The notes under the pieces were generated by a model, which was given only the letters and a program-made list of their open reading frames with translations, searched no databases and was not told the origin of the DNA. From positions 1-64,000 of the forward strand of contig SSEL01000002.1 in NCBI GenBank assembly GCA_008012315.1: DNA of 64,000 nt. Reading direction: 5' to 3'. The position numbers and the translations under genes were made by a program. Positions 13,475 through 29,456 of the stretch are shown piece by piece (positions within the stretch are counted from its first letter, which is position 1; each line of letters opens with the position of its first letter). The stretch comes from Rhodospirillaceae bacterium. Lineage in GTDB: Bacteria > Pseudomonadota > Alphaproteobacteria > Dongiales > Dongiaceae.

Positions 13475-15745
13475 TTATTCATCCTCTGTGTGCCACTTGG
13501 TAAAGCCGCTGGCCGTGTTCGTCTCTGTCGGAGGCGGAACGTCCGTGACCTTTCCAGGTTTGTTGGAATTCGATTTCTTCGTTTTACGAGCCTTCTTTGG
13601 AGATGGACTGCCCTCCTCGGCGTCCGCTACCTGTCCCTGATCGCTGGTGGGTTCGAGGTCCAGATCGGGGTCGGTATCGTCGTCGGGCGTGTTGTCATCG
13701 ACGATATTGCCGAAGAGCCCGTGAGGTGACGGTGGCGCACGCTCAATGAGCTGGAACACACGAAGATGGTCGTGCAATACCTTCTCGAGCTTTTCGGGGG
13801 TCCAGGTCTCATCAACAATACCCGCTCGAGCCTCGGCTTCAGCGCCGATTTTCTGGAGCTTTCTGGCAGCACGGAACAGGACAGGAAGGTGGATTTTCGC
13901 CTGATTGGCATGTTGCTGCGCGATCTGCCGGGCACCTTCGATCCATTCCGTAAGCCCGAGATTTTTAGTTTCCTTATGAACGCACTCGACGGTCAGGTAG
14001 CCCTTGGGGGTCTCAACACTGATCTTCGAGATGTCATCGGTATCGATGCGAATCTCGACCTCCTGGAGGCGGCTCTCAAACCGCTCTTCCATCAGGTCCC
14101 TGGATTGATAGTAAAGCCCAGCGATCTCAATGCCGGAATCGGTAATCGTGCGGGGATACCGGAGGCCAAACACGTGGCGAAGTTCATCCTTGTCGATGAG
14201 AGTATCGACCTGCCAGTTCTCTTTTTGGCGGTTCCAGGCATCAAACGGCGTTTCACCGAACAGCCCTTCATGCGGGGTCAGGTGGTAAACATCGACCACA
14301 TAGATCGTCATTGCCTTGACGAGTTCATCAAGGGTGAGGGTGGCCGCCTTCTGTGCCGGATATAACCCCCGGTCGACGACGTTCGAAAATGTCCGACCGG
14401 TGAAATGGGCTAACAATCTCTGGCCGATGGAGCCAAACACGCGTTCGATACGTGCCCGCAGGCCAGGTTCGGCCGGAGGCGTCCGGGAGAGTTCGCATCC
14501 CATGCTCATGGCAGCAATCTTGAGGGCTTCAGAAGCCAGTGCGCTGCCGTTATCCGTGAAGATAGAGTGAGGGCGACCGTAGTATGCCCAGGCAGTCTCC
14601 GTCCCGAGATTGTAGCCGATATGGCTTTTGTCGACGAAGATAAGCTTAAGGCACTCGAGGGCGGTCCGGGCGCTGGGCTTACTCGTGTGGATGACGAAGC
14701 TCAGGAGACAGCGGGTGGTGCAGCAGATGGCGGCAGTCATCCATACCCTGGCACGGTCAACCTCAAGCTTCTCCTCTTCGGATAGAGTTTTGTAGATGCC
14801 AGCGGTGACGAGGAGGGTATGGAGCTGGACATGCCATTCGTCGATCTCGACGCGCTGCAAGGGCCAGAAGACCTGCAGGCCGTCGTTGACGATAGTGAAG
14901 TGCTTTCTTGCCCATTCGGTGGTATGGCGACCGGCGACGACATGGAACTTGTTGAGCTTGGCAACGGCGCGTTCCAGAGCTTTGACATCGGGAACCCGGA
15001 AAGGCTTTTTGCCCTCAGCCACCCGTTTGGCGTTTTCTTCTTCGACGGCGGGTTTGAAGTATTCCCTGTAGACAAAGGCTTTGCTGGGCCGCTTCGATGA
15101 GATGTACATCGCCGCGTGCCGTTCCAACATTGCCCGGAGCTCAGGCAGAAGCCGGTCTTTGCGATTGCCTGAAGCCCGACGACGCCGGTCGAGGAGCGAT
15201 AGCGGATCGAAGTTCGAGTTCTCATAGCGCTTCAACCAGCGTCTGACCTGGTCCGGCGAAGGCATTGTCGGAAGCGTAACCGTGGATTGCCGCTTCTGCT
15301 TGGCAATCATCTCGGCCCGTTCGTAGATTTCTGCAAAGTGTGTCCGAATTGCAGCAAGCAGTTTTAGCCCGGAGCGTCGTGCTTTGCCGCTAGCGAGCAG
15401 GTTCAGAAGGTGATCGCAATATCCTTTGCGCTCCAGGATCTTGGCCTGTTCTTCAGGCGCCAAGTCTTTGAACAGTACGTTACCAGCCTGAAGGCGTGTC
15501 AGCGTTTTGGACGGGTTATAGTAGTCAGCCTCGATCCGCACTTTCCCATCATCGAAGAGGCTCTTAAGTCGATCCTCATCAAAGGTTTCGGGCCATTCTG
15601 AGCCGTCATCGCGGATCATCAGAACATTTTTCCCCTCGAACCGCGGCGAGCGGTAGGGAACGTTGTTGATGTGGGTCCGCGCGAACATATCCAGTCGGAC
15701 CGGCGTAAAGGGCAGCAGTTTGGGTTTGTCAATGGAAACAGCCAT
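13475..15745 (-). CDS. tnsB: TnsB/TniA-type DDE transposase
   Basis: A 756-residue Mu/Tn7-type transposase with an rve integrase fold. The catalytic triad is visible as Asp302 (EIDEWH), Asp398 (IFTDNGSA) and Glu434 (RIERVFGSIG). The N-terminal 250 residues contain helix-turn-helix regions expected to bind the end repeats, for example MPSPDQVRRWLKRYENSNFD. A Mu C-terminal-like beta domain follows near 530-600. The last 90 residues are acidic and then lysine-rich, a disordered tail that in Tn7 TnsB contacts TnsC. It is separated from tnsA by 12 bases. Confidence 0.88.
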   Translation of the reverse strand: MAVSIDKPKLLPFTPVRLDMFARTHINNVPYRSPRFEGKNVLMIRDDGSEWPETFDEDRLKSLFDDGKVRIEADYYNPSKTLTRLQAGNVLFKDLAPEEQAKILERKGYCDHLLNLLASGKARRSGLKLLAAIRTHFAEIYERAEMIAKQKRQSTVTLPTMPSPDQVRRWLKRYENSNFDPLSLLDRRRRASGNRKDRLLPELRAMLERHAAMYISSKRPSKAFVYREYFKPAVEEENAKRVAEGKKPFRVPDVKALERAVAKLNKFHVVAGRHTTEWARKHFTIVNDGLQVFWPLQRVEIDEWHVQLHTLLVTAGIYKTLSEEEKLEVDRARVWMTAAICCTTRCLLSFVIHTSKPSARTALECLKLIFVDKSHIGYNLGTETAWAYYGRPHSIFTDNGSALASEALKIAAMSMGCELSRTPPAEPGLRARIERVFGSIGQRLLAHFTGRTFSNVVDRGLYPAQKAATLTLDELVKAMTIYVVDVYHLTPHEGLFGETPFDAWNRQKENWQVDTLIDKDELRHVFGLRYPRTITDSGIEIAGLYYQSRDLMEERFESRLQEVEIRIDTDDISKISVETPKGYLTVECVHKETKNLGLTEWIEGARQIAQQHANQAKIHLPVLFRAARKLQKIGAEAEARAGIVDETWTPEKLEKVLHDHLRVFQLIERAPPSPHGLFGNIVDDNTPDDDTDPDLDLEPTSDQGQVADAEEGSPSPKKARKTKKSNSNKPGKVTDVPPPTETNTASGFTKWHTEDE

Positions 15746-15757
15746 GACTAGCTCTCC

Positions 15758-16423
15758 TTATGCGGCGCGGTGAGCCGACCGAGCGCTTGCTTGGCCCTTG
15801 AGGCGAACCGAACTGAAGTGATCGATCCGGCCGTCGGAAACCTCGAGGAGGCCCCGGTCAATAAGATTGATGATGGCCGGAAGGGCGTGATCGCGTAGGC
15901 CGCTGCTATAGGCCAACTCCCCAATCGCGACGGCGCCATTGAGGTTCGCGGCATGCTTTGCCATATGGGCAATCTGCAGCTCGTCAGACATACGGCGGCA
16001 ACGCACAATCAGGCGGCTGTTATGTGCTAGCTCGCGCGTGATTTCTGCTTCAGTGCAGATACAGAATTTGTCAGCAAACTTGCTGCCAGTCTGCTGTCGG
16101 ATACGTTTCAAGACGGTGCGGACCTTGGAGGGTTCAACCCGTGAATACGGCTTCACAGCAATGGCGACCCGTTCGCCGCTTTTGAAGCGAACAAGAAAGT
16201 CGAACGTGTGTTTGTGCTTTTCGCCTTTCGAATCCGCATAGATGACGGCCGGAGGCTGTTCCCAGACATCTTCCACGCTATTGTCGGCGAGCAGGATGTA
16301 AGCCAAGTCAGCCTCCAACGTACTTTCGAACACGATGGTTCGGTTGGTCGAGGGATCGACCAATGAGCCAACGACATGTCCTTTGGATTTCGCTACGGGA
16401 TCTCGAGTGGCACGTGATGCCAA
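15758..16423 (-). CDS. tnsA: TnsA-like endonuclease of Tn7-type transposon
   Basis: A 221-residue protein with the TnsA N-terminal nuclease fold: FESTLEADLAYILLAD (Glu37 a candidate catalytic acid), FDFLVRF (Asp75) and VAIAVKPYS (Lys91). TnsA makes the 5' strand cuts that free the element. In Tn7 TnsA the position two residues before the lysine is Gln; here it is Ala89, so the site is slightly atypical. The protein is shorter than Tn7 TnsA (273). The second half includes a winged-helix-like segment AIGELAYSSGLRDHALPAII that may contact TnsC. The start is assigned to TTG at 16423 with GGAA seven bases upstream, and is uncertain. First gene of the tns operon. Confidence 0.75.
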   Translation of the reverse strand: MASRATRDPVAKSKGHVVGSLVDPSTNRTIVFESTLEADLAYILLADNSVEDVWEQPPAVIYADSKGEKHKHTFDFLVRFKSGERVAIAVKPYSRVEPSKVRTVLKRIRQQTGSKFADKFCICTEAEITRELAHNSRLIVRCRRMSDELQIAHMAKHAANLNGAVAIGELAYSSGLRDHALPAIINLIDRGLLEVSDGRIDHFSSVRLKGQASARSAHRAA

Positions 16424-17463
16424 GGGCGGGTTCCAAAAACGCGCCTTTTCGCGGGCGGCAGTCAGCCCGCTATGTGTTCACCCCGCTTGACGGTCTCGAT
16501 TTGCTGCTCCGCATGGCTATCGTTTGCGGCGCCGCATTTGGGTTGGAGGTCAGTATGGGTAATAATCGGGTGATCGTTGTTCATGGGAGAACCTCGCTAA
16601 AACGGACATAGCTGTACTGGCACGCGATTGCGTGTTCAGACGGAGACGGCTATGCGGCGTATGGTTCTCTTCATGGTGGTGTGCACTATACAGATTTCTG
16701 TCTTAGTTGCAAGGACTATATTGATATAAATCAATAAGTTAAGTTGCTTTTGTTGAAAATTGAATCGATGTGATTTGATTTGCACGGGGTAGGATCGACG
16801 GATTATCTCGCCCCTCCCACATAATCGGCTTCAAGGACGACGGACGATGGCAAGCACAGGTTTCGATGGTTGATCGATCCTTCGTCATCCGCGTCACGCG
16901 ACGCGTGAACGATGAAGAAGGCGATGTGAACCCCCGCAACGAGGTCTCTGTCTCTTCGCCCTCCCTCAGCGCGAAGGGTGACAGAGGCTCGCTCACCCGC
17001 CATTGAGCCAGATCTGTTGGCTGTCTTCAACGAGCCAACAGTTGCATCTTTCACGATGTGATTGTGCCGCCGAAGAGGGGCGACATCTTGCATCGTTGGT
17101 GATCGACGCAGCGGTTCATATCCATGATGTGGCACGCAAGGTATTGCGCGCCATTTTTCTTGAGATGAAGGATTGTTTATGCTGAACAAAGCATACATTC
17201 AAAGAGAAGTAAGAATTGTGCTTGTGATGATGTAGCAAAATATGAAGCCGCTATCCTTCGTATCGGAAGGTCTTCGACGCGAAATGGTGTCTGTCGCCTA
17301 CACAATATGGTCAAGGAGCGCAGCAACTGCCACGTGAAGAATAGCCTGCTGCCCAAGGGTCGATCTGGAGCGGGCCGTCGACTTTAGTGAGAACCTGTTT
17401 TTTCGGATCTATGGACATGGCAGGCGAAGGCCCATTAGCGTTGCCTCATAGGCCATGCACAAT
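16424..17463. other. Gene-free 1-kb stretch upstream of tnsA
   Basis: No convincing coding frame on either strand. It contains an FNR-type palindrome (16721), one TGGCAAG (16848-16854, the complement of the end repeat) and GGTGACA (16977-16983, the complement of the seven-base terminus), but not the repeat cluster expected for a complete second transposon end. Base composition is AT-richer than its neighbours around 16700-16770. The tns promoter should lie here. Confidence 0.5.
16721..16734. promoter_or_regulatory. FNR/FixK-type box
   Basis: TTGATATAAATCAA matches the FNR/Anr/FixK consensus TTGAT-N4-ATCAA exactly. It lies 298 bases upstream of tnsA in a gene-free region, so its target is unclear. 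As an isolated palindrome in AT-rich DNA it may be fortuitous. Confidence 0.4.
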
Positions 17464-18825
17464 TCAGACCTCCGGAGCCGCCCGCGTCCTTTCGAGAAGA
17501 TGGTTGGTGAGGCTGTGAACGAGCCCGGCCAAGTCCATTAGACGCTGGTCCTCGTCTTTCCCGCCCCAGGGAGCGATGAGGTTACCATGCATGACTTGGT
17601 TTCGAACATCCTTCCATGCGCGAGCTTGAGCCACCCCCACAACCTGGCGGTCGACCAAGCTCTTTAGAAAGCTCCCAATGGTCCGAATGCCTGCGCGGGA
17701 AATATCTCCAAGAATTCGTTTCTTAAGCTCGGGATCTCCTTCCCATTTCTTCACAGTCCTCTTCAGGCAAGCCAATTGTGCGCTATCAAAGTCCGACTTT
17801 TGCTCTTCGGGCCGCATGATCATCTTTGCGATGCCCTCAGCAGTGCTTGCCAAGGTTAGACAAAGTACCCAACGTGAGCCGCCAGCAGCTTGCGCGATCT
17901 CCTCGTAAAACCGTGTGAGTCGATTTGACTCGAAATTGGGTTGATTATCAGCATCACGCGCATTTGCGATGAATGTTAATAGAGCCGAGTACATTTCCCA
18001 GAAACTGTCCTTTGCTTCAATTGGGTCTTTCCCAAGCAATGAAGCCAGGCCCGCATTAGGCAGTCGAGATGGAGAGGGACGAAGCCACACGTCCGCGGTT
18101 CCGTTTCCCTTGTTCCGCGCGACAAGCCGCGGATAGATGAGTTGGCCAGTAAGAACTCGAAGAGGCTCAGAAAGCCAGTTTTCTAAATAGGGGTGCGGGA
18201 GTTCCGTAGACGCTGTTGCTGTGAGATATAGGGCTTCACTTCCTGGTAGATGGTAAAATTCAATCTCTGATCCAAGTACACGGAGAACACATCGGCCAGG
18301 CTCGCGCCTATATTGGATTTCTTCGCCGCCAATTTTTGTGACTGATTCCATCCAGTGTTCCATGGGAAGATGCAGTCTCGGAAGGAAGACCAACTCCACA
18401 CCGGACACTTTCGATACCCATTGTCCAGATACTGAGGTGACGAGGGACCGCAGTTTCCCCGTGAGTAGCCAGCGGTCCTTAACGGCAGACACTAACCGAA
18501 CACCGGTCCAACCACAGGCCCATTCGTTTCCGTCGTAGTCGACTGCCTCAAGTCGGAACTGCTCACGAACGTCGTAGGGATTGTCTTGGGCTCGTACGAG
18601 ACGGCGGAATGCTTCATTCCCGTCGCTAGCCTGCGCAGACATTATGAAGTCCATAGACATGAACGAGGTGATTTTGATTTGTCCGGTCCCTACAAATACC
18701 GGGTCTTCAAAATCGGCAGCACTCAGTAGGCGCATCTCCGCACATTCGAGGGTATTGGGCACCGGCAATAGGCGCTTTTCCCACGTGCTTAAAGTCCTCA
18801 TACTATGACCCTGCTGGTCATTCAT
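17464..18825 (-). CDS. HEPN-motif protein, probable accessory component of the defence operon
   Basis: A 453-residue protein I do not recognise as a named family. The C-terminal 170 residues look helical and end with AWKDVRNQVMHGNL, where Arg408 and His413 form the R-x4-H motif of HEPN ribonucleases. The N-terminal 250 residues are beta-rich and contain no obvious catalytic motif. This layout, a beta-rich sensor-like domain plus a C-terminal HEPN, recalls ApeA-type abortive infection proteins, but I cannot show homology. GGAG eight bases before the ATG supports the start. It lies 91 bases downstream of the CD-NTase gene in the same direction, so it may be the last gene of the CBASS operon or an independent system. 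Confidence 0.6.
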   Translation of the reverse strand: MNDQQGHSMRTLSTWEKRLLPVPNTLECAEMRLLSAADFEDPVFVGTGQIKITSFMSMDFIMSAQASDGNEAFRRLVRAQDNPYDVREQFRLEAVDYDGNEWACGWTGVRLVSAVKDRWLLTGKLRSLVTSVSGQWVSKVSGVELVFLPRLHLPMEHWMESVTKIGGEEIQYRREPGRCVLRVLGSEIEFYHLPGSEALYLTATASTELPHPYLENWLSEPLRVLTGQLIYPRLVARNKGNGTADVWLRPSPSRLPNAGLASLLGKDPIEAKDSFWEMYSALLTFIANARDADNQPNFESNRLTRFYEEIAQAAGGSRWVLCLTLASTAEGIAKMIMRPEEQKSDFDSAQLACLKRTVKKWEGDPELKKRILGDISRAGIRTIGSFLKSLVDRQVVGVAQARAWKDVRNQVMHGNLIAPWGGKDEDQRLMDLAGLVHSLTNHLLERTRAAPEV

Positions 18826-18916
18826 CGTGCTTTCTCCGGGACGACTGGGTCGAGATGAGGAGAGGCTCTTGAGGGCCCGTCTCCTAGAGAGTTCCCTGGA
18901 GACCGAGCTAAGTAGT

Positions 18917-19822
18917 TCATCGAGCGTGCCAGTCCTTCCAATATTGAGCGGCAGCCGCCAGGAAAGCGTTGAGTTTTTCGATGCGCCAAGTCACGAGGGA
19001 CGTAGGGTTTATGAGGTAGTACATCTCATTCGCGCATAGAAGCTTCTCCTTGTCGCTCGCGCTGATCCAATTCAGCGCGTTGGTGATCGTGTTACTGTAC
19101 GATGTATCGAAGTTCTCATCTGGAACGTTATAGAGCATGCCTTCCAAGAAATAGGACGGTGCCGTGCCTTCATCTAAGTAACCGTTATCCACCATGCTAT
19201 TGCGCATGTTTTTCAGGATGCGCACGGATGGCTTAAACCACCCGTCCGTCGCCTGATGCTTACTCGTACAATTCGCAGAATGCCGTTTTGGGTAGTTTAC
19301 GATCTGGGTACCGTCATCGGTCCAAAAGACAATGCCCTCTGCGTAATCCGTCGTATTTTGGGGGCCGTAGCTGAAATACCTTCGGTACTCTGCGGCTGGC
19401 AGGACGTCTGCATCGCGCCTGGTGCCATTCCCTTGGACGAAGATCGCTTTGTTTCCGGGTTTCACTGAAGTTCCCAGCTTCGCTATCAGGTGGCTGGTGA
19501 CCTGTTTACGAAAGTCGGCATAAGCGAAGCTACCCTTGCTCCACTTCGCCTTATACGCTTCAAGCTCCTGAGGCTTTAAGGCAGATGTATCGTCGTAGTA
19601 AATCGAGCTTGTACAAATGACGATGTCGACGTCACTGTCGGCATAAATGTTGGTGTCATTTCCGTATGAGCCTTGCAAGAAGATGCTATAACTTTTTGAT
19701 GCGTAGGGAGCTGCCTTATCCTCCAGAATGCCGCGGATGGTCGCATATGTATTCTGCGATTGCGTGACGGAGCCTTGCTTGCTCCACGTATCTAGTTGGG
19801 TTTCAGGTATCGGCATCTTCAT
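18917..19822 (-). CDS. CD-NTase (cGAS/DncV-like nucleotidyltransferase) of a CBASS system
   Basis: A 301-residue nucleotidyltransferase. Gly51-Ser52 starts the motif and SDVD supplies Asp64 and Asp66, with the third carboxylate in DADVLP (Asp139). These are the metal-binding residues that make cyclic oligonucleotides on phage infection. Length and motif spacing fit bacterial CD-NTases; the clade and second messenger cannot be assigned by eye. The ATG overlaps the stop of the patatin gene as ATGA, so enzyme and effector are translationally coupled. N-terminal sequence is MKMPIPETQ, without a penultimate glycine. Confidence 0.85.
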   Translation of the reverse strand: MKMPIPETQLDTWSKQGSVTQSQNTYATIRGILEDKAAPYASKSYSIFLQGSYGNDTNIYADSDVDIVICTSSIYYDDTSALKPQELEAYKAKWSKGSFAYADFRKQVTSHLIAKLGTSVKPGNKAIFVQGNGTRRDADVLPAAEYRRYFSYGPQNTTDYAEGIVFWTDDGTQIVNYPKRHSANCTSKHQATDGWFKPSVRILKNMRNSMVDNGYLDEGTAPSYFLEGMLYNVPDENFDTSYSNTITNALNWISASDKEKLLCANEMYYLINPTSLVTWRIEKLNAFLAAAAQYWKDWHAR

Positions 19823-20787
19823 TTCCCCGACAGCAACTTCTTTATATCTTCTTCATGCTTCGCATATGATTCGGCGCCCCTTTGTCGCAGGAGGTTGAGC
19901 TTCTCCAAGTTGTGCTCAAACAAGTCGGTGGCCATCTCGGGCCGCTCAAAAGTATCGCTGATGCGAACAGTGGGGACGTGTTTGTATAAAATGGTTCGAA
20001 GCTGATCCATCGATTGGGTATTGATCTCCAGCGTCTTCTGCAGGAGCTGCACGCTCTTTAGGTACTTCGCCCAGTACATAACGCTGAGCAGCGACGCCTT
20101 TGGTGACGGGTAAGTACCAACGCCAACACTGACGACTCGAAGATCTTCTGGGGCATAGTTCAGCGCGCGCGTCGCGTCGGCGATGGCATAGAGCGTTGGG
20201 TTGTTCGCACAATAACCGCCATCTACCAGCTCGACGTCATCCCCGGCCGCAGTATGGACAACTTTGCGGTCAAAGAATGGGTACGCAGAACAGGATGCTT
20301 GAACAGCATCTGCGATGGACACCCCGAAACCTGGGACGAATGTACCGAACCGGCCGTGTGCTTGGCTGATATCGCCCTTAAAGATCATGGGGCGTTCCAT
20401 CACCCATCGGGTAGCAACGATGCCCACACGAGTCTTGACGTCGGTGAACATCTTGTCTTCGAAAACCACGGTACCTAATTCGGCGAGGGCTGCCGTTTTG
20501 TCCCTGGCCGACTTGCGTTGCATGATACGTGGCACGTAATCGCAATAGAGCTTATGTATCTCATCGACAGAACGGCCCAGTGCGATCAATGCCGCGATGA
20601 TGGCGCCTGTGCTCGTGCCGAAGACCAGGTCAAAAGCCTCGCAGAGTGGCTTTTGAACAAGCCCCTCTATTTCTCGCAGAACGCCGAGAGAATAGAAACC
20701 CTTTGCCCCGCCGCCATCGAGGCTAAGGATGCGAAGCGGCTTCGACGTTTGTTCTTCCCCTGCAGTCATGTTGGCGTTTTCGCCCAT
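19819..20787 (-). CDS. capV: Patatin-like phospholipase, CapV-type CBASS effector
   Basis: A 322-residue patatin-fold lipase. It shows the oxyanion motif DGGGAKG (24-30), the nucleophile elbow GTSTG with Ser59, and Asp189 in DGG, the Ser-Asp dyad. In CBASS such proteins are activated by the cyclic nucleotide of the partner CD-NTase and degrade the inner membrane, killing the infected cell. The C-terminal 100 residues (after SVGVGTYPSPK) are the likely ligand-binding part. It overlaps the CD-NTase gene by four bases and follows the QueC-like gene by 34. The N-terminus is MGE; after methionine removal it would carry a free glycine, worth noting because QueC-like CBASS proteins have been linked to protein modification. 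A start six codons later is possible. Confidence 0.88.
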   Translation of the reverse strand: MGENANMTAGEEQTSKPLRILSLDGGGAKGFYSLGVLREIEGLVQKPLCEAFDLVFGTSTGAIIAALIALGRSVDEIHKLYCDYVPRIMQRKSARDKTAALAELGTVVFEDKMFTDVKTRVGIVATRWVMERPMIFKGDISQAHGRFGTFVPGFGVSIADAVQASCSAYPFFDRKVVHTAAGDDVELVDGGYCANNPTLYAIADATRALNYAPEDLRVVSVGVGTYPSPKASLLSVMYWAKYLKSVQLLQKTLEINTQSMDQLRTILYKHVPTVRISDTFERPEMATDLFEHNLEKLNLLRQRGAESYAKHEEDIKKLLSGK

Positions 20788-20821
20788 GTCGTTTAGTTAA
20801 ACCTGTATCTGGAATCCACCG

Positions 20822-21409
20822 TTATGGCGCACTCGTGGAGCTCATAACCTCGTTATGCTTCAGGCATCCTCGGCATTGGCCACATGGGTAGACTGAGACG
20901 TGGCAAGAGAAGGTATAAGCGAGCAGTTCCGCAGTGATGCCTGATCGCAAGATTAACTCTTCAGACCGCATCAACGAAGCAGGGGCTGAGACGTTGACAG
21001 CTCCCTCCTGGACCCGCAAAAGCGTACCAATGGCATCAATGAATTCTGCTCGCCCATCCATGTGGACGACATCACTTGCTACAGTTCCAATCATAATTTC
21101 GCTTAGGCCCTCGGAAACGAAGCGCATTGCTCCGAGGGTTATAAGAAGCTGGTTGCGGTATGGCCACCATTCAGGCGCCGCGGCAAGAGAGCTCGGTTCT
21201 CGCCCGGTCAGATGACCAGTACCAAGAGCGGAGCAATCCACCTTGATCACTTCGTGGCGCAGCCCCAGTTGGGAGGCGACATACGCTGATGCTCTGATTT
21301 CGGCGGCTGCAACTCGCTGGCCATAGTCGACCGTGCAAAGCATGTCCGGCCGGAGCCAGGCAGCTATACATGACGAGTCGATACCACCTGACAGGAGCAG
21401 CAGCTTCAT
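20822..21409 (-). CDS. QueC-like 7-cyano-7-deazaguanine synthase homolog (type IV CBASS Cap9-like)
   Basis: A 195-residue PP-loop ATPase. SGGIDS at residues 7-12 is the pyrophosphatase loop, and the C-terminal CHVSVYPCGQCRGCLKH gives the four-cysteine zinc site of QueC. True QueC converts CDG to preQ0; relatives in type IV CBASS and Qat systems are part of anti-phage defence, and here the setting (patatin, CD-NTase, OGG-like gene) points to defence rather than queuosine synthesis. It is slightly shorter than housekeeping QueC (about 230). The ATG at 21409 overlaps the upstream stop as ATGA, which decides the start. No other queuosine gene (queD, queE, queF) is in the window. Confidence 0.85.
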   Translation of the reverse strand: MKLLLLSGGIDSSCIAAWLRPDMLCTVDYGQRVAAAEIRASAYVASQLGLRHEVIKVDCSALGTGHLTGREPSSLAAAPEWWPYRNQLLITLGAMRFVSEGLSEIMIGTVASDVVHMDGRAEFIDAIGTLLRVQEGAVNVSAPASLMRSEELILRSGITAELLAYTFSCHVSVYPCGQCRGCLKHNEVMSSTSAP

Positions 21410-22590
21410 CGCATAGAGGCCCATACCGCTTTATACGCGGCCGAGCACAGGTCCCTCGCCACATCGCAGCCGGTACCCAGTGCCATCGTCAAATCGCGTT
21501 CATCAACGCTTTCGGCGAGTACTACGACGGGAATCGACCGAGACCTGGCATGGCCGACCTCATACCAAGTACCTGGATCTGCGCCGTCAACGATGGCGAG
21601 GACTGCATCGCAACCGTTCAGGCCTTCGATATCGGCGGGTGCTACCGTTTCCGGATCGCCAAAACCCACCTCGTGAATCGGCGAGAAGACAGCACATCCA
21701 AGGCCATGCAGAATATCGCGGAGCTCTTCAACCAGCCATCGCTGCGCCGTCGTGAAGAAGGGACCGGCCAGATAGATTCGTCCGGGAGGCCGATCTGTTG
21801 GGATCGGATCGCCAACCTCTAACTGCTCGTTGGAGGGAATGGGCAAGGATCGAGTGGCAACATAGTGCGCGACTGCCTTCGAAGCCAGGTCCGCAGCAAT
21901 TGCCGGGTCGAGGTTCTGGTCAGCCCAATGGAAAGCGAAGATGGCCGAGAATATGTCTCCCGACCCGATCTTAAAGACGGCACTCGACTTGTAAGCTGGG
22001 ACAAGGATCGGAGGCTGGGCAAGCCGATGAACCTGAGCACCGTTTGGCCCACACTTTACGACCACAACGTCGTCCCTGAATTCTTCTGATAGGAGCTCTT
22101 TTGCCCCAGCGGCAATATCGTTATGCCCGGTTAGCTCCGCTAGCTCGGTCGAATTCAGAACGGTGGCGACAGCGGCTGCTGTCGAGCCATTGTCGCGAAA
22201 ACGCACGTTGCTTGACTGCGGGTCAAAGACTGCGCGCTCTGCGGTAACAATGGCATCACCCTCCAGGAAGCCAAATCGTAGAGCGGTGGGAGCTTCCACC
22301 CTGATTGGTTCTGCCTGAAGGTCAGGGTCCCAATACATTTCAGAGCGCGAAAGAGAATGGAAATATTCAAACGAGACCGATTGCCGAGCGTCTGAACAAT
22401 GGACAGTCACGCCACCGGCACCCAACATCATTCTGATACGCGCCTGTCGGGAGGGTTCTGCGTAGGTGTATAAATTGATACCGGGGAGTTTTCCGGCCAG
22501 TGCCGCCGCTGCGCGACCCCCAGAGCCATATACTTGATCCCATTCATCGACGATTGAACGCTCGTGATAGACACCGCCGACAACGATCAC
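21406..22590 (-). CDS. PfkB-family kinase fused to nucleoside 2-deoxyribosyltransferase
   Basis: A fusion of about 394 residues. Residues 1-250 form a PfkB (ribokinase) domain: VIVVGGVYHERS at the start, GSGGRAAAALAG as the substrate loop and GSGD with candidate catalytic Asp212. Residues 270-394 form a nucleoside 2-deoxyribosyltransferase domain: IYLAGPFF (about 272-279), GCDAVLAIVDG and TWYEVGHA with candidate nucleophile Glu344. GTG at 22590 is chosen because it overlaps the upstream stop as GTGA and has GGGG seven bases before it; an ATG-like start 14 codons earlier would overlap that gene by 46 bases. Its position, between OGG-like and QueC-like genes, is where type IV CBASS normally has a TGT-like base-exchange enzyme. 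I infer that it handles a modified nucleobase or nucleoside. Confidence 0.8.
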   Translation of the reverse strand: MIVVGGVYHERSIVDEWDQVYGSGGRAAAALAGKLPGINLYTYAEPSRQARIRMMLGAGGVTVHCSDARQSVSFEYFHSLSRSEMYWDPDLQAEPIRVEAPTALRFGFLEGDAIVTAERAVFDPQSSNVRFRDNGSTAAAVATVLNSTELAELTGHNDIAAGAKELLSEEFRDDVVVVKCGPNGAQVHRLAQPPILVPAYKSSAVFKIGSGDIFSAIFAFHWADQNLDPAIAADLASKAVAHYVATRSLPIPSNEQLEVGDPIPTDRPPGRIYLAGPFFTTAQRWLVEELRDILHGLGCAVFSPIHEVGFGDPETVAPADIEGLNGCDAVLAIVDGADPGTWYEVGHARSRSIPVVVLAESVDERDLTMALGTGCDVARDLCSAAYKAVWASMR

Positions 22591-22979
22591 TGCGTTGCCC
22601 CTTTTTTGTACCGAGAGACCTGCACGCTGCATCCTGGAGTGACATCCACGACCTTTGCGCGATAGACGTGCCCAAGGTCGATGCAGTCGATTAAGGCAAG
22701 AGCTTTGTCGGAGGAGGCTAGGCTTCCCACCGTTTCACCAGTGGTGATGATGCGACAGACGACGCTCGAGTAGAGATTGCTATCGACCTTGTCGACCGAC
22801 AAGACGTCGCCCTTCTTGAGCTTCTTGACCACGGCGGGATCTAGGCCTTGAAGCGAAGTGCGAAACGATAGATCGCAATCGTCTTTGGACCCGCCTCCGG
22901 CAGAACCGCCGCCTGGTCCCTTTCCTGATTCGGTGGAGCCAGATCCCTGCTTGTTCCGGCCGCCGGAGTTTCCAGCCAT
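22587..22979 (-). CDS. Small protein with glycine/serine-rich N-terminus, unknown function, in CBASS operon
   Basis: A 130-residue protein that I do not recognise. Residues 1-32 are glycine-, serine- and lysine-rich and probably disordered (starting MAGNSGG). Residues 35-125 look like a compact beta domain: LKKGDVLSVDKV, VGSLASSDKALALIDCI and YRAKVVDVTPGCSVQVSRY, a pattern reminiscent of a small nucleic-acid or ligand-binding barrel, though this is only an impression. GGGGGA seven bases before the ATG supports the start. Its stop overlaps the start of the kinase fusion, so it is an integral operon member. A flexible tail linked to a small domain could be a substrate or scaffold for the modifying enzymes. 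Confidence 0.7.
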   Translation of the reverse strand: MAGNSGGRNKQGSGSTESGKGPGGGSAGGGSKDDCDLSFRTSLQGLDPAVVKKLKKGDVLSVDKVDSNLYSSVVCRIITTGETVGSLASSDKALALIDCIDLGHVYRAKVVDVTPGCSVQVSRYKKGATQ

Positions 22980-23037
22980 ATTTCAATCCCCCAATTTGAT
23001 TTTATTCTTATCATTGGGGGAACTGATTCTCAATGAA

Positions 23038-23778
23038 TTAGTGTAAAGGTATCGATCTCAGCCGACGCATATTGGTCCAGATTAAGGCATCGAGCGTAGC
23101 GGCACCGACGCCAAGACCACGGGCAAACGCCAGGAAGCGTTCTTCCAGGGCGAGATAGTCTTTCGGAAGCCGAATGTCGTCACCGAAGAGCCGCATAATG
23201 CGACAGGCGCGAATGATATGAATATCGAGGATCGCGACATCATCTGATCCGGTCACATTACGGACAATCCAAGAGGCAGTCTTTGGTCCAATGCCGCTGA
23301 TCATTTGTAATTCGTTTCTCAGTCGAAGGGGATTGTCCAGACATGGCGGATTTGCGGTTAGATGCCGCATTGCTTGCGCAAGTCTCGTGCTCCGCTGCCG
23401 CGGAAATCGATAGCGGGTCCTCCGATCACCCACTTGCAGGGGCTCGTCCAGCAACTTCAATATCTGCTCTTCCGTGGGCTCCGCAGCATCGTCAAAAATA
23501 CCTTCGGCGCTCAAACGTTCGAATGCGGCCGTGGCGAGTTCCGCGGTTATGCCAAATCCACCCAAGAGGCAAAAGCCCACCTCTGACCTGAGATCCCCAT
23601 CCTCTCTGATATAGCCAAAGGTTGGGTCATCGGTGCTGTGGGCCAGGATGAACCAGAAGGCCGGACTGAGAATCTCATATGTCTTCCCCCAACTTACGCC
23701 GGGCACCACTTCGGTATCGGCATCGGGGATCTCTATAGTCTTAATCTGGCCATTCACACTGGTCTCAACGGTTTGCAT
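23038..23778 (-). CDS. OGG-like HhH-GPD DNA glycosylase/lyase homolog (type IV CBASS)
   Basis: A 246-residue protein with a C-terminal HhH-GPD glycosylase fold. ISGIGPKTASWIVRNV carries the helix-hairpin-helix with catalytic Lys166, and ILDIH supplies Asp185, both as in 8-oxoguanine glycosylase. The N-terminal 90 residues resemble the OGG entry domain only loosely. Such OGG-like proteins are ancillary to type IV CBASS, together with QueC- and TGT-like proteins. AAGGAGG eight bases before the ATG at 23778 decides the start; two earlier ATGs lack a site and would run into the shared operator. It is the first gene of the operon, divergent from the XRE regulator. Confidence 0.82.
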   Translation of the reverse strand: MQTVETSVNGQIKTIEIPDADTEVVPGVSWGKTYEILSPAFWFILAHSTDDPTFGYIREDGDLRSEVGFCLLGGFGITAELATAAFERLSAEGIFDDAAEPTEEQILKLLDEPLQVGDRRTRYRFPRQRSTRLAQAMRHLTANPPCLDNPLRLRNELQMISGIGPKTASWIVRNVTGSDDVAILDIHIIRACRIMRLFGDDIRLPKDYLALEERFLAFARGLGVGAATLDALIWTNMRRLRSIPLH

Positions 23779-23845
23779 CTTTACTCGCCTCCTTGCGATA
23801 TGCATATTGATGCATTCCGATGCATAGTACAAGGAGGCGGACGGA
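23779..23845. promoter_or_regulatory. Divergent promoter/operator with ATGCAT repeats
   Basis: The 67-base gap between the CBASS operon and the XRE gene contains three ATGCAT copies (in ATATGCATAT, TGATGCATTC and CGATGCATAG, about 23798-23826) spaced about one helical turn apart. It is flanked on both sides by mirrored AAGGAGGCG ribosome sites. The repeats are the likely operators of the adjacent XRE protein, which would control both directions. Confidence 0.6.
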
Positions 23846-24151
23846 GTGAGGCCGAGCTGGCAAAAAGTCGAGCGCGCCAGAGCGGATCTGGGATTAAGTC
23901 AGCGAAAGCTGGCGGCGAGAATAGGGGTGACCCAAGGGCACCTTTCCAAGATTCTTCGGGGTCAAATCCCAGACAAACATAACATTTTGGGCAAGGCTAT
24001 GGCTGTTATTGCCGCACCGATGCAGGCCGACGGAGCCACCGATCAGTTGCTCGAAAGTGTTCGGGCGCTCGCCCTGCAATCACAGGAGTTTCGCCAGTTT
24101 TTATATCTGGCGATGCAGTTGGCTTCTCAGGCGCCTACCGATGCAAAATGA
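23846..24151 (+). CDS. XRE-family transcriptional regulator of the CBASS operon
   Basis: A 101-residue protein with an N-terminal Cro/C1 helix-turn-helix: LSQRKLAARIGVTQGHLSKI at about residues 17-36. The remaining half is helical and may dimerise (LLESVRALALQSQEFRQFLY). The start is GTG at 23846 with AAGGAGG eight bases upstream. It is divergent from the OGG-QueC-CapV-CD-NTase operon, with the ATGCAT repeats between, which strongly suggests that it represses that operon and itself. Its stop codon lies inside a hairpin that again contains GATGCAT. Confidence 0.85.
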   Translation: MRPSWQKVERARADLGLSQRKLAARIGVTQGHLSKILRGQIPDKHNILGKAMAVIAAPMQADGATDQLLESVRALALQSQEFRQFLYLAMQLASQAPTDAK

Positions 24152-24162
24152 TGCATCGGTAG
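24135..24162 (+). terminator. Hairpin at the end of the XRE gene
   Basis: CTACCGATGC (24135-24144) pairs perfectly with GCATCGGTAG (24153-24162) around an eight-base loop containing the XRE stop codon. There is no T-tract. Because it contains TGATGCATCGG it could also be a distant operator for the XRE protein. Confidence 0.5.
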
Positions 24163-24295
24163 CAGAAATTGCATTTCGAGGATGCGCTACCGTACCCTGT
24201 TGACGCGACCCACTATTGCGGCCGCATTTTACCACCGACGCTGGGTAAGCTTGATTGAGGCACGGCCTCGATATTCGCAACAAGCATGTCTAAGC

Positions 24296-24778
24296 CTATA
24301 AGGGTGCACTCTCGGCACGGTGATCGGTCAGGCAATGCGCATGGCTTGTATCCGCCAACACCTCGATGACGTGGCAGTTTTCAACGCGGCCTTGGCCGCA
24401 CTGCTGAATCATGCGCTCCAGTTCCACTTTCAAAGCTTCGAGGCGCTGGATACGTGAGACAACCGCATCCAACTGCTTCCGGGCGATCTGGTCCGCTAAG
24501 TGGCAGGGCTGATCCGGATGATCGGATAGATCCAAGAGGCTGCGAATGGCTTCCAGTGGAAATCCCAACTCCCTGGCATGCCGGATAAAGGCAAGGCGGG
24601 ACTGTTCGCGACCTCCATAGAACCGCTGGTTGCCCTCGGTCCGACCCGGTTCCGGCATCAGCCCGATTTGCTCGTAATACCGGATGGTTTGCACCTTCGT
24701 GCCGGTAAGGCGGGCCAATTCGCCAATGGACATGCCACCGGACGGGTAAGCAGTCGTCTTTTGGGTCGATTTTCTCAT
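24296..24778 (-). CDS. MerR-family divalent metal regulator (CadR/ZntR/PbrR type)
   Basis: A 160-residue MerR activator. The helix-turn-helix MSIGELARLTGTKVQTIRYY begins at residue 16, followed by the dimerisation helix. Counted from that methionine, the cysteines are 77, 112, 120 and 134; Cys77 is the residue that marks sensors of divalent ions, while CueR-type sensors have Ser. Divergence from a Zn/Cd/Pb P-type ATPase gene confirms the role. Either the ATG at 24778 or the one at 24733 could start the protein; the second gives the canonical N-terminus but neither has a strong ribosome site. The tail has further His and Cys residues (TSHAHCLTDH), as in CadR. Confidence 0.85.
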   Translation of the reverse strand: MRKSTQKTTAYPSGGMSIGELARLTGTKVQTIRYYEQIGLMPEPGRTEGNQRFYGGREQSRLAFIRHARELGFPLEAIRSLLDLSDHPDQPCHLADQIARKQLDAVVSRIQRLEALKVELERMIQQCGQGRVENCHVIEVLADTSHAHCLTDHRAESAPL

Positions 24779-24787
24779 TTTTTGCTC

Positions 24788-24818
24788 TTGAAGCTACAGT
24801 AGCTGTAGGTCCCATGTT
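24788..24818 (+). promoter_or_regulatory. MerR-type promoter of zntA
   Basis: TTGAAG at 24788 and CATGTT at 24813 are separated by 19 bases, the long spacer typical of MerR-family promoters. The spacer holds the dyad CTACAGTAGCTGTAG (24794-24808), the expected operator. Confidence 0.75.
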
Positions 24819-24851
24819 GATCTCAATTGGCTGGGTTTCAAGGAGAAGGCT

Positions 24852-27026
24852 GTGGATTCCGCCACCATTCGAGACGAGAAGATGGGCACCGAACTGCGTT
24901 ATCAGGTCGAAGGCATGGATTGCCCAAGTTGCGCCGGGAAGGTCGAGCGGGCCGTTTCCGGGATTCCTGGTGTGCTGGAGGTCTCAGTTAACTATTCGGC
25001 GGCCAGCCTGAAAGTTCGAAGCGACGAACGCCCCGGCTTGGCCGAGGCTATTGCAGAAGCATCGAAGCGTATCGGCCACCCGCTAAGGGCGACAAATGGT
25101 TTCAAGCAGGGCCTAACTGCTATAGCGGCGGAGGGTGGAGATGCCCAACATGAAGGTGATGCAATCAGTCGCGCCTGGTGGTGGCAAACCAAGGTCCGGG
25201 CGGCTCTGACCTCAGTTGTGGCCCTTGGGCTTGCGGCATTGCTGTCTGAGTTCGTCATCCCGACTTCGAGCTTGATTCTGTATACGGCGGCCGTCGCTAT
25301 TGGCATCTATCCCATCGCGCACAAGGCGATCCGCCTTGCCACGGCCGGGTCTCCCTTTAGCATGGAAATGCTGATGACAGTCGCTGCCCTTGGCGCCGTG
25401 GCAATCGGGGCGCCCATTGAAGCAGCAATCTTCATCTTTCTCTTCACCCTCGGGGAGCTATTGGAGAACGTCGCTGCAGCGCGCGCCCGGTCGGGAATCA
25501 CGTCGATGCTATCGGTCATCCCGACGACGGCCACTGTTCTTACAAACGGGTCGCAGCGTCAGATCGCGGCTCAAGAACTGACCGTTGGGATGACGGTCCT
25601 CGTTCGTCCAGGCGAGCGGATTCCTACCGATGGCTCGGTTTCGGAAGGAACGTCCAGTGTCGATCAGTCTGCGGTAACCGGCGAGTCCGTCCCAGTGGTG
25701 AAATCGACAGGGGACGAGGTCTTCGCTGGTACGATCAACAACGACGGATCGCTGACTGTTGCTGTTACCAAGCCCGCTTCGGATACCTTGGTTGCGCGTA
25801 TGCTGCATCTGGTCGAGGAAGCCCAGGAGAGCAAAGCGCCGATCTCTCGCTTCATTGATAGGTTTAGTGCCATCTATACGCCCATGGCGATGGCGGGTGC
25901 ATTGCTGGTTGCCATCGTGCCGCCGCTGGCCTTTGGCGCATCCTGGCATGTCTGGATCTATCGCAGCCTTTCCCTGCTCTTGATTGCATGCCCTTGCGCC
26001 TTGGTGATATCGACACCCGCCGCTATTGCCGCAGGCCTCGCGGCAGGTGCCAGGCATGGTCTTCTCGTCAAAGGAGGTGCTGCACTGGAGATGCTCTCAA
26101 AGATCCGCGCTGTTGCCTTTGATAAGACCGGTACATTGACCATCGGTAAGCCAGCGGTGACGAATGTTGTCGAAGTCGGCCAGCCCGTGGACGACGTTCT
26201 TGCCTGGGCCGCTGCCGCTGAATCCACTTCCACCCATCCAATCGCCAACGCAATCGTTCATCATGCAAAGTCCATCGGCTTGGCCATTCCCCAGGCAAGC
26301 AACGGACGTGCCGTGCCGGGTAAATCGGTTTATGCAACAGTGCAAGGCCGTGATGTTTCCGTGATGTCCCCCCGCGCGGCGGCATCGATTATCGGACCAG
26401 AAGTAGAGCGGCAAATCGAGGCTCTCGAAGCCAGAGCCAAGACGGTCGTCGTCGTAAAAATAGATGACAAGGTCGCTGGCCTGATCGCTCTGCGAGACGA
26501 GCCACGCACTGATGCCGCCGTAGCTGTATCTCGGCTGAAAGCAATGCGGATCGGTAGCGTGCTGCTTAGCGGCGACAACCACCGGAGCGTGACAGCGATA
26601 GGGCGAGAGCTTGGCATACATGTCCGCGGAGAACTTCTGCCCGAGCATAAAGTCGACCAGATTAGAGCAATGAAGGCACGTGAACCGGTCGCAATGATTG
26701 GCGACGGGATCAACGATGCTCCGGCTCTGGCAGCGGCCTCGGTCGGTATTGCCATGGGTGGCGGAACGGATGTCGCCATTGAAACGGCCGATGTTGCCCT
26801 GATGAAGGATCGCGTGACGGGCGTAGCCGAGGTGATTTCGCTTGCCCGCACGACAATGGCGAATGTCCGACAAAACATTGCGATCTCGCTAGGTCTCAAG
26901 GCGATCTTCCTGGTCACCAGCCTATCCGGTGCAACTCCGTTATGGATGGCAATTCTGGCTGACACTGGCGCGACCGTTATCGTGACCGCCAACGCGCTGC
27001 GGCTGCTGGGCTTTCGCTCCAAATAG
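24852..27026 (+). CDS. zntA: Zn/Cd/Pb-exporting P1B-type ATPase
   Basis: A 724-residue heavy-metal ATPase of the inner membrane. One N-terminal HMA domain carries GMDCPSCAGK. The membrane metal site is CPC in IACPCALVIS, the phosphorylated aspartate is in DKTGTLT, and GDGIND forms the hinge. The last membrane helix reads ILADTGATVIVTANALRLL with the aspartate that distinguishes Zn/Cd/Pb pumps from copper pumps. GTG at 24852 with AGGAG six bases upstream is the start. It is driven from the MerR-type promoter just upstream and exports divalent soft metals from the cytoplasm. Confidence 0.93.
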   Translation: MDSATIRDEKMGTELRYQVEGMDCPSCAGKVERAVSGIPGVLEVSVNYSAASLKVRSDERPGLAEAIAEASKRIGHPLRATNGFKQGLTAIAAEGGDAQHEGDAISRAWWWQTKVRAALTSVVALGLAALLSEFVIPTSSLILYTAAVAIGIYPIAHKAIRLATAGSPFSMEMLMTVAALGAVAIGAPIEAAIFIFLFTLGELLENVAAARARSGITSMLSVIPTTATVLTNGSQRQIAAQELTVGMTVLVRPGERIPTDGSVSEGTSSVDQSAVTGESVPVVKSTGDEVFAGTINNDGSLTVAVTKPASDTLVARMLHLVEEAQESKAPISRFIDRFSAIYTPMAMAGALLVAIVPPLAFGASWHVWIYRSLSLLLIACPCALVISTPAAIAAGLAAGARHGLLVKGGAALEMLSKIRAVAFDKTGTLTIGKPAVTNVVEVGQPVDDVLAWAAAAESTSTHPIANAIVHHAKSIGLAIPQASNGRAVPGKSVYATVQGRDVSVMSPRAAASIIGPEVERQIEALEARAKTVVVVKIDDKVAGLIALRDEPRTDAAVAVSRLKAMRIGSVLLSGDNHRSVTAIGRELGIHVRGELLPEHKVDQIRAMKAREPVAMIGDGINDAPALAAASVGIAMGGGTDVAIETADVALMKDRVTGVAEVISLARTTMANVRQNIAISLGLKAIFLVTSLSGATPLWMAILADTGATVIVTANALRLLGFRSK

Positions 27027-27129
27027 TAGTGCTAGTCCGCCTTCGCCTAACGGGAATGTCAGGCATGGGTAAGGCCTCCGCGTTATAACAACATACAAAC
27101 GCGCGTTGCTATGACCATGAGATGGTCCC

Positions 27130-28131
27130 ATGCTAGCTGACGTTGTTGTATCAGCAGGTAGCGATCATTCGTCTCCCCTATGCGGGGTGTTCGAACGTGC
27201 GACGCAAGCCGTCGCGAATGCTGTCAGGTTCGTGCTGGAGCGCGAGGTCGTCGCCGCCGCTCAGATCGTTTCCGAGGCGTTGCCATCGTCGATCCTCCAA
27301 GGCCTGCCACTATGCCGTCTGCCATATCCCACGACCTGGCTTGAATATGCGGGGCACGACAGACCCGAAATCGCCGCAATAGGAACGACGATACCGCATC
27401 GGGTTGGTCTGTTATGCGAGGCTGTGGCGGAATCACCCGGCGAATTTACCGTAAACGTCTTTTGGCATCTGGGCGGGAGGGACAACAGAGTAGAGCTTTG
27501 CCCGGTTGCTCTACTGATCGACATGACTGCAGAAGGCCGCGTGGCGCGCGACCCTCAAAGCGCCTCGCAGAAGCGGGACGCCACTATTGAAGGGCTCCAA
27601 AAACTGCTTCTCAGCAGCACCCAACGCTGGGATCAAAAGGTCGCTGCAAACCCGCGTGAACTCGAAGCAATGCTTGCGCTGAGTAACCGCATCTTCTTCA
27701 TTAGGTCCACCTACTTCGCGCCGGTTGCAACGGCAATCGTGCAACACTCCGGTGCGGGGGCGCTGGAACGACTGCTGAACCTGTCGCGGCCAAATGCGGA
27801 AGCCGAAGCAGGCTTTCTGTTGGCAATTTTAATGCTGCTAAACAGTCGCAACGGAACGAGTCGGGAACCTGCGGATCTCGCCAAGATCAACACGGCGCGG
27901 CGCAAGCAGGGGCGACATCCGCTGCTTGATTTTTGCACCGTCAATCTGCGTCTGAGTGCCAGCCGATCTCGTGCATTGGGTAGATCTGATGTGCCGGTTC
28001 ATCTGATGCGCGCGCATCTCGTGCGTGGCCATTTCAAGATTCGCCGAAGCGGCATCTATTGGTGGTCGCCCCACATTCGAGGCGACGCAAAGCTCGGCAT
28101 GATTCGTAAAGACTACAAAGTTGCCTTGTGA
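27130..28131 (+). CDS. Hypothetical protein, 333 residues
   Basis: A protein I do not recognise. The C-terminal segment GHFKIRRSGIYWWSPHIRGD is striking and looks conserved-type; it is preceded by a basic stretch ARRKQGRHPLLDFCTVNLRL. No signal peptide, membrane helix or clear catalytic motif is visible. Proteins with this kind of arginine-rich KIRRSG-WWSPH ending turn up on plasmids and islands, but I cannot assign a function. It stands alone between zntA and the ArsR gene on the same strand, 104 bases after zntA. The start ATG at 27130 lacks a good ribosome site. Confidence 0.6.
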   Translation: MLADVVVSAGSDHSSPLCGVFERATQAVANAVRFVLEREVVAAAQIVSEALPSSILQGLPLCRLPYPTTWLEYAGHDRPEIAAIGTTIPHRVGLLCEAVAESPGEFTVNVFWHLGGRDNRVELCPVALLIDMTAEGRVARDPQSASQKRDATIEGLQKLLLSSTQRWDQKVAANPRELEAMLALSNRIFFIRSTYFAPVATAIVQHSGAGALERLLNLSRPNAEAEAGFLLAILMLLNSRNGTSREPADLAKINTARRKQGRHPLLDFCTVNLRLSASRSRALGRSDVPVHLMRAHLVRGHFKIRRSGIYWWSPHIRGDAKLGMIRKDYKVAL

Positions 28132-28192
28132 CGGGCTAGGTTAGGCCCGACAGAGTAACGCGTTCTACGTCCATTTGGGACCGTTTGCCGCT

Positions 28193-28525
28193 ATGAAGCC
28201 GATACCTGAAGCGATACCGAAGCTCAATGACGATCAAATTGCTGAAGTAGCCGAAATCCTGCGACTGCTCGGCGAAGCCTCTCGGCTGCGCATTTTGTTA
28301 GCTTGCCTAGCGGAACCGGCGTCGGTGGGCGAACTCGCTCTGCGGGTGGGTATACCGCGCTCGCTCGTCAGCCATCATCTGAGAATCCTAAGGGCAAGTC
28401 GATTGTTGCGGGCCACGCGCAACGGCAAACAGATGATCTACTCGCCCATCGACGACAGGGTTCGGTGCATCGTTACGGATCTCGCTGCACACGTTCTAGA
28501 AGTGCCAGACGAACAGGAGGAATAA
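28193..28525 (+). CDS. ArsR/SmtB-family regulator
   Basis: A winged-helix regulator of about 110 residues: ILRLLGEASRLRILLACLAE, then the recognition helix VGIPRSLVSHHLRILRASRL and wing TRNGKQMIYS. Metal-sensing ArsR proteins have a CxC or similar motif in the recognition helix; here that motif is absent, and only single cysteines (LACLAE, VRCIV) remain, so the ligand is unclear. ATG at 28193 is preferred over TTG at 28175. No partner effector gene is directly downstream; the next gene is on the other strand. Confidence 0.82.
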   Translation: MKPIPEAIPKLNDDQIAEVAEILRLLGEASRLRILLACLAEPASVGELALRVGIPRSLVSHHLRILRASRLLRATRNGKQMIYSPIDDRVRCIVTDLAAHVLEVPDEQEE

Positions 28526-28685
28526 AAACTCTTGGGACTCGTTCCGCGGTGTTAAAATTTGCCTTCATCACCTAAGGCATTTTTCGGTTAGCGCGACTTC
28601 ACCCTTGTTTGGCTTGTGGTGTGGGAGAGCCTGCACGCCACGGCCAGTAATTTCGAATGATTTAAGCGCAGTTCGCGTGCTCGCG

Positions 28686-29246
28686 TCACGGCGTAACGGT
28701 GATTGCGGTTACCATTCCCGCCGCATAATGGCCTGGTAGGTTGCAAATCAGGAGGTAAGAGCCAGGCGCCAGAGTCACCTCTAAAGATTTAGTGACATTG
28801 GGCTGCAAATCGGCGGCCTCCCCAAGCACCTTCACTTGCTCTTCGGGAACGCGCGCTTGGGGATAATCATAGGGAAGCGGTGATGCCGGATTGTCGACAG
28901 CAACCACAAGCATCTCATGTAAGACGCTCCTCGACCAGTTCGTGATATCAAATGTCACTGATCCTGCTTTCACCGCCGACTGATCGGTGCGGATGGTCAT
29001 CATTCCGCCCATCATGCCCATACCCATCATGCCGAGATAGGTCTGTCCCTGTCCCTGTCCCCACCCTGGGCCCATCATACCGGGTCCCATCATCCCGTAA
29101 CCGCTCAATCCCGTGGGCATAACGCTCGAAACATTAAGCAGTGCAACTTTTACCGTCGTCTTCACGTCTGCAGCAAAGCCAGGGCTTGCCATGGCAGCTA
29201 GCATCAGCAATGCGGGCGTTAAACGCCTTAGATATCGCTCAAGCAA
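28686..29246 (-). CDS. Secreted cupredoxin-like copper protein with methionine-rich insert
   Basis: A 186-residue periplasmic protein with an N-terminal signal sequence (RYLRRLTPALLMLAAMASPGFA). A Met/Gly-rich insert (YGMMGPGMMGPG and GMMGMGMMGG, about 50-82) is followed by a cupredoxin domain. Type-1 copper ligands are readable as His in SVLHEML and Cys, His and Met in LICNLPGHYAAGM. It probably binds copper through both the blue-copper site and the methionines. The start is assigned to TTG 29246, since no ATG gives a full signal peptide; this is uncertain. Part of the copper island, divergent from the small secreted protein at 29457. Confidence 0.75.
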   Translation of the reverse strand: MLERYLRRLTPALLMLAAMASPGFAADVKTTVKVALLNVSSVMPTGLSGYGMMGPGMMGPGWGQGQGQTYLGMMGMGMMGGMMTIRTDQSAVKAGSVTFDITNWSRSVLHEMLVVAVDNPASPLPYDYPQARVPEEQVKVLGEAADLQPNVTKSLEVTLAPGSYLLICNLPGHYAAGMVTAITVTP

Positions 29247-29291
29247 GCACCCAAGCGAGCAGTGTCAGGCAAGGGCTCTAGGATGAGAAGT

Positions 29292-29322: not shown

Positions 29323-29385
29323 TGATCTGAGGTGCATAGCCTTTACGCAATAACCGATAGCCGCCACTATCTCCTGTCATCGAGC

Positions 29386-29399: not shown

Positions 29400-29456
29400 A
29401 GTAGCAGTGACGGATGATCTGTACTCTTTGAAAGCTCGGAAATATCGCTTGATCCA

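Follow-up and report, generated by a model that had tools for sequence, protein, structure and literature searches.

What does a PfkB-family kinase fused to a nucleoside 2-deoxyribosyltransferase (NDT) do beside genes of bacterial immunity? The question is raised by positions 1 to 64,000 of contig SSEL01000002.1 of Rhodospirillaceae bacterium (GenBank assembly GCA_008012315.1), a 64,000-nucleotide stretch referred to here as the window. The gene concerned, PfkB-NDT (394 aa, 21406..22590, minus strand), had been described in a first-pass annotation, made from the sequence alone, as a possible nucleobase-transfer enzyme with a QueC gene and genes of a cyclic-oligonucleotide-based antiphage signalling system (CBASS) as neighbours; both kinds of neighbour are present. 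We give an even chance to the reading that PfkB-NDT acts as the second enzyme in a mobile cassette, composed of a tailed HIRAN-fold protein, PfkB-NDT, a QueC-like enzyme and an Ogg glycosylase, and that this cassette adds a third branch to the protein-conjugation systems of the QueC family.

In type IV CBASS the QueC homologue Cap9 joins carboxy-deazaguanine to the N-terminal glycine of the CD-NTase, at the motif MGGS, and QatB carries a similar MGTS tail that is required for defence (PMC11996544, PMC13279940). Reports of protein-nucleobase conjugation date back no further than 2025 and concern one CBASS type, and the role of QueC-family proteins in other defence systems was stated to be unknown (PMC13279940).

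Architecture and active sites of PfkB-NDT

Translation was taken from the GTG at 22590; an in-frame ATG lies upstream at 22632, yet the homologues start where the GTG lies. With this start, the coordinates and the numbering of Asp212 and Glu344 in the first-pass annotation are correct. The kinase half (residues ~1-265) matched PF00294 (PfkB) at 32.8 bits against a Pfam cut-off of 25.8, and the transferase half (~270-394) matched PF05014 (NDT) at 55.9 bits against 28.8. The AlphaFold2 model had a predicted local distance difference test score (pLDDT) of 96.5 and a predicted template-modelling score of 0.94. Structure comparison placed the kinase half in the ribokinase family (Z 24-26, ~250 residues aligned). 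Because ribokinase, sulfofructose kinase and pseudouridine kinase matched equally well within that range, the fold cannot name the kinase substrate. The other half was assigned to the NDTs, its best match among solved structures being a true NDT.

The kinase GxGD motif is present as IGSGD212 and the NxxE residues are Asn146 and Glu149; residues of the NDT catalytic type are Tyr273, Asp320, Asp338 and Glu344 (in GTWYE344). Among 96 non-redundant homologous copies Asp212 was retained in 95 and Glu344 in 83, and the remaining five residues were retained in most. The earlier view of a real two-enzyme fusion was confirmed, with predicted active-site residues intact and conserved.

The fold matches bear on a reading in which nucleosides are consumed: the kinase would make a 5'-phosphate and the NDT domain would cut the glycosidic bond, in the manner of pseudouridine kinase-glycosidase pairs, so depleting phage nucleotides. 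The kinase fold does lie near pseudouridine kinase, the NDT superfamily holds 5'-monophosphate hydrolases (4jen and 2khz were matched), and dGTPases were found near 10 of the cassette loci surveyed below. The NDT half, however, is closer to transferases (6evs, 7e-14) than to the hydrolase Rcl (2e-3), and the QueC-like enzyme and the tailed partner would be given no purpose. We consider nucleoside consumption highly unlikely.

The conserved cassette

Approximately 85,000 species genomes were scanned for PfkB-NDT, yielding 276 relatives, and the best 80 of the 276 were kept. Together with plasmid and viral loci these made 100 loci, or 81 once copies more than 90% identical had been dropped; the counts below refer to these 81 non-redundant loci. 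The QueC-like gene adjoined PfkB-NDT in 80 loci, the single exception being a cut contig, and in 79 a small protein with a Gly/Ser tail was encoded upstream of PfkB-NDT. In 71 loci a gene for an Ogg glycosylase lay nearby. Hosts included Proteobacteria, Cyanobacteria, Bacteroidota, Verrucomicrobia, Myxococcota and haloarchaea.

Within the window the order of transcription is Ogg-HhH, the small protein of 130 aa, PfkB-NDT, the QueC-like enzyme, CapV and CD-NTase. The PfkB-NDT gene overlaps both flanking genes, which indicates a single operon. The Ogg-HhH DNA glycosylase/lyase family protein (23038..23832, minus strand) has catalytic Lys184 and Asp203, retained in 71/71 relatives. Divergent from its gene is that of an XRE-type helix-turn-helix protein (23846..24151, plus strand), a probable regulator of the cassette.

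A SagB-like nitroreductase (flavin mononucleotide dehydrogenase) lay immediately 3' of the QueC-like gene in 44/81 loci (for example L059:11721-12464 and L090:11786-12457). Elsewhere this slot was taken by an Mrr nuclease, a dGTPase or an ATPase, and in the window by CapV/CD-NTase. Further defence- or mobility-like neighbours were Dam methylases, Mrr nucleases, dGTPases, GajB, a helicase associated with reverse transcriptase, conjugation genes and Tn7-like genes. A metabolic operon was rejected, no metabolic neighbours having been found; gene content supported a defence-type setting. The closest relatives of the host do not carry the cassette.

The small tailed protein

The small protein (130 aa, 22587..22979, minus strand), which the first-pass annotation had passed over, consists of a tail (MAGNSGGRNK..., residues 1-30) and a HIRAN-fold domain (residues 36-127). 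The tail is Gly/Ser-rich and predicted to be disordered (pLDDT ~52); the domain is a confident beta domain in the structure model. Fold comparison gave Z 12.2 to 3k2y, a structural-genomics protein, 8.8 to the HIRAN domain of HLTF (6kcs), 8.2 to Rad5 and 7.4 to HamB of Hachiman. No match was obtained in a sequence search of solved structures.

Across the family the tails open MSGSG, MGGSG or MAGxx. When starts were chosen by an automatic start picker, M[SGA][GS] was found at the start of 66/78 small proteins, 3/81 PfkB-NDT proteins and 4/77 QueC-like enzymes. With starts then picked for the motif (n = 78), the second residue was Ser (57), Gly (15), Ala (4) or Thr (2), any of which allows removal of the initiator Met. 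In view of the tail and of the kinship of the QueC-like enzyme to Cap9, the small protein is likely to be the conjugation partner, or client, of that enzyme.

Cys35 and Cys99 are invariant in the family alignment. A perfect 9-bp inverted repeat, TCCCCCAAT...ATTGGGGGA, is located just 5' of the small gene (window 22986-23020), over its probable ribosome-binding site; it was considered as a riboswitch or attenuator and dropped, there being no Rfam match and no conservation.

The QueC-like enzyme

The QueC-like ATP-dependent enzyme (200 aa, 20822..21424, minus strand, start at 21409 or 21424) retains the motifs SGGxDS, DYGQ and PxRN and four Cys residues. HxDG replaces YPDC, with the Asp of YPDC kept. 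Its profile matched Cap9 (9nto) and canonical QueC about equally well. In a tree, the QueC-like, Cap9 and TIR-type enzymes formed one group with support of 1.0, separate from five canonical QueCs, and within it the QueC-like enzyme sat on a branch of its own. Since the host genome encodes a separate canonical QueC and QueE, the QueC-like gene is not needed for queuosine. Co-occurrence with QueE, for want of a base rate, was not taken as proof of the substrate.

Inactivated NDT copies and a TGT-bearing sister type

A Rhizobiaceae type (L015, L185, L186, L187 and the partial L003) has a PfkB protein in which the NDT motifs are lost and, in the same operon, a TIR-TGT protein that is Cap10-like (TGT, tRNA-guanine transglycosylase). 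The four complete loci, on plasmids, additionally encode Ogg, a QueC-like enzyme and a ThsB-type TIR protein whose tail reads MGGGSSGS(W) or MGGGGGGN (L015:7013-11377, L185:5995-10389, L186:5995-10395 and L187:5959-10370). These operons look like a Thoeris-like system that has a conjugation tail. None of the loci with an intact NDT gave a match to a TGT profile.

The other eight copies with a dead NDT are second copies in tandem loci, beside an intact copy, and each has its own tailed HIRAN protein. All NDT losses seen were thus in loci that also had a TGT or a paralogue whose NDT is intact. In the tandem cassettes (L025, L026, L027, L028, L030, L040 and L098, ~11400-13400) the second tailed HIRAN protein and second PfkB-NDT follow the QueC-like gene; the kinase Asp of the second copy is mostly retained, and an FRG-domain gene often comes next.

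The NDT/TGT pattern was also examined in 398 genomes of the host phylum (the host's own and 397 others, the latter not having been used to find it). Of the additional loci, five had an intact NDT, and each of these carried Ogg, the tailed protein and the QueC-like gene and no TGT; the one other locus had a dead NDT and a TGT. The pattern held in 6/6.

Persistence of paralogous second copies that have lost NDT, and sometimes kinase, residues would fit a PfkB-NDT that acts as a reader with little or no catalytic activity. Such a protein would hold the base-modified tail, in line with the reported remodelling of Cap10 for tail binding, with the kinase site serving only as a nucleotide-dependent switch. 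A scaffold would not need full sets of NDT and kinase catalytic residues, yet most copies across many phyla keep them; we regard the reader as unlikely.

The sister type and the tail also bear on a pathway to a free 7-deazaguanine (deoxy)nucleotide, in which the QueC-like enzyme makes the base, NDT adds deoxyribose and PfkB phosphorylates, the product being a metabolite, signal or DNA building block; purine salvage has been suggested in this sense (PMC13329287). NDT and nucleoside-kinase chemistry would be consistent with such a pathway, and so would the use of QueC and deazaguanine DNA by some phages. The tailed protein in 79/81 loci and the switch to TGT with a tailed ThsB would both be left unexplained, and the lack of metabolic neighbours, the grouping of the QueC-like enzyme with Cap9 and the absence of the cassette from the closest relatives of the host argue against it. 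A free nucleotide is in our estimate quite unlikely.

As to the earlier proposal that the fusion makes or consumes a nucleotide bearing the QueC product, two-enzyme base chemistry together with a QueC-family protein is plausible; the likely substrate is a protein-bound base and not only a free product.

Proposed mechanism

Under the conjugation reading, the tail of the HIRAN protein would first lose its Met, and the QueC-like enzyme would use ATP to attach a base of the carboxylated 7-deazaguanine type to the N-terminal amine. PfkB-NDT would then engage the protein-bound base, which is the role of the TGT-family Cap10 in type IV CBASS. Its NDT domain would exchange or add a 2-deoxyribosyl group on the attached base, and its kinase domain would phosphorylate the sugar, so that a nucleotide-like tail would be made or read. 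The HIRAN domain, as modelled, and Ogg would link this tail to DNA ends or to damaged or modified DNA, and the cassette as a whole may act against phage.

Several points weigh against this reading. As far as was found in the literature, no reaction or phage phenotype has been reported for the cassette. The QueC-like enzyme has His at the position of the base-stacking Tyr of QueC and Cap9, and the tree that groups it with Cap9 contained few sequences, with Cap9 represented by a fragment. In 6/40 cassette-bearing genomes there was no match to QueE and no canonical QueC was found, so that carboxy-deazaguanine may be unavailable there. Most tails have Ser at residue 2 (57/78), whereas the client of Cap9 has Gly. 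A Pfam search with the small protein gave no credible match, and there was no HIRAN match among 50 members at E values up to 1. Finally, NDT losses are clustered on the tree, and the NDT/TGT exclusivity therefore rests on few evolutionary events.

A broader form of the conjugation reading is possible, if on the doubtful side: a widespread and as yet undescribed defence family in which the N-terminal deazaguanine of a HIRAN-fold protein is turned into a protein-bound deoxynucleotide by an NDT-kinase, with sister systems that tail ThsB in a Thoeris-like manner. If conjugation is correct, tail modification would be a mobile module of general use in which both the client (CD-NTase, QatB, HIRAN protein or ThsB) and the enzyme that handles the base (TGT or NDT) can be exchanged. 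The kinase-NDT fusion would have its first testable role, and the label of purine salvage would be corrected.

CBASS genes and mobility

A CapV-type patatin phospholipase, the CBASS effector (19819..20787, minus strand), starts 34 nt after the QueC-like gene and is followed by a CD-NTase, the oligonucleotide cyclase (18917..19822, minus strand); both lie outside the conserved cassette. Next comes a 453-aa protein (17464..18825, minus strand) with no family match, absent from the other cassette loci. The 34-nt spacing makes co-transcription of the pair with the cassette probable, which would suit a reading in which the cassette genes are ancillary proteins of this CBASS and modify its CD-NTase as in type IV CBASS. 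Ogg and QueC occur in type IV CBASS too.

The CD-NTase of the window, however, begins MKMPIPETQ and has no Gly tail, and a TGT profile search of window positions 13001-30000 found no Cap10-like TGT. The pair adjoined PfkB-NDT in 1/81 loci, the window itself; among the other 80 the nearest case was a weak CD-NTase match ~2.5 kb upstream of PfkB-NDT in L013, an archaeal plasmid. Relatives of the pair elsewhere are stand-alone two-gene CBASS. The pair is therefore a neighbour of the cassette, perhaps co-transcribed, and not its usual partner. Membership of PfkB-NDT in the CBASS, the frame in which the first-pass annotation had placed it, was rejected on the missing Gly tail, the missing TGT and the lack of linkage in other loci; we judge an ancillary role very improbable indeed.

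Tn7-like genes adjoin the cassette at window positions 10589-16423 (TniQ, TniB/TnsC-type, Mu-type TnsB and TnsA). Similar TniB or TnsB genes were near the cassette in 6-7/81 loci, and for this reason Tn7-like elements may carry it. Seven Methylobacterium/Methylorubrum species (L019-L024 and L035) have nearly identical cassettes, which indicates recent transfer. The full PfkB-NDT fusion was not found in 50,697 phage records. Viral contigs gave six full-length PfkB-NDT matches, the remainder being of the NDT domain only, and a Cap9 search of viral contigs gave one weak match. A plasmid search at the DNA level found no relatives of the window region.

Comparison with known systems

The literature search for the QueC/PfkB-NDT pairing returned PMC13329287 (2026) only, in which QueC 'Cluster 4' adjoins PF00294-PF05014 proteins and probable purine salvage is suggested. 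The cassette enzyme belongs to that cluster, having the same signature, CH(x)5CxxCxGCxK, and the same PfkB-NDT neighbour. The first-pass annotation knew of no CBASS protein with this architecture; the architecture is not wholly undescribed. The tailed HIRAN protein, the Ogg/SagB linkage, the Cap9 kinship and the NDT/TGT exchange are not in that paper. Among the QueC-dependent conjugation systems the cassette would be a variant whose client, enzyme and sister type do not appear in the literature found.

Type IV CBASS has in common with the cassette a Cap9-related QueC enzyme, Ogg, a Gly/Ser-tailed client and a third enzyme of transglycosylase type. Its client is a CD-NTase (beginning MGGSGGGF in a genuine type IV locus that was examined), whereas that of the cassette is a HIRAN-fold protein; it uses a TGT, whereas the cassette has an NDT fused to a kinase and usually no cyclase/effector pair. 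The qatABCD system likewise combines a QueC-family enzyme with a client having a disordered N-terminal tail. QatC, however, is ~400 aa with N- and C-terminal extensions against 200 aa for the cassette enzyme, QatB is helical against the beta fold of the HIRAN client, and no QatA or QatD was seen at the cassette.

The small protein shares its fold with the HIRAN domains of HLTF, Rad5 and HamB (Z 7-9) at ~16% identity, and differs from them in having no Pfam HIRAN match, in standing alone and in its Gly/Ser tail. With the nucleoside 2-deoxyribosyltransferases (6evs and others) the cassette enzyme shares the fold and the Tyr/Asp/Asp/Glu set; it differs in its fusion to a PfkB kinase and in its fixed linkage to a QueC-like gene.
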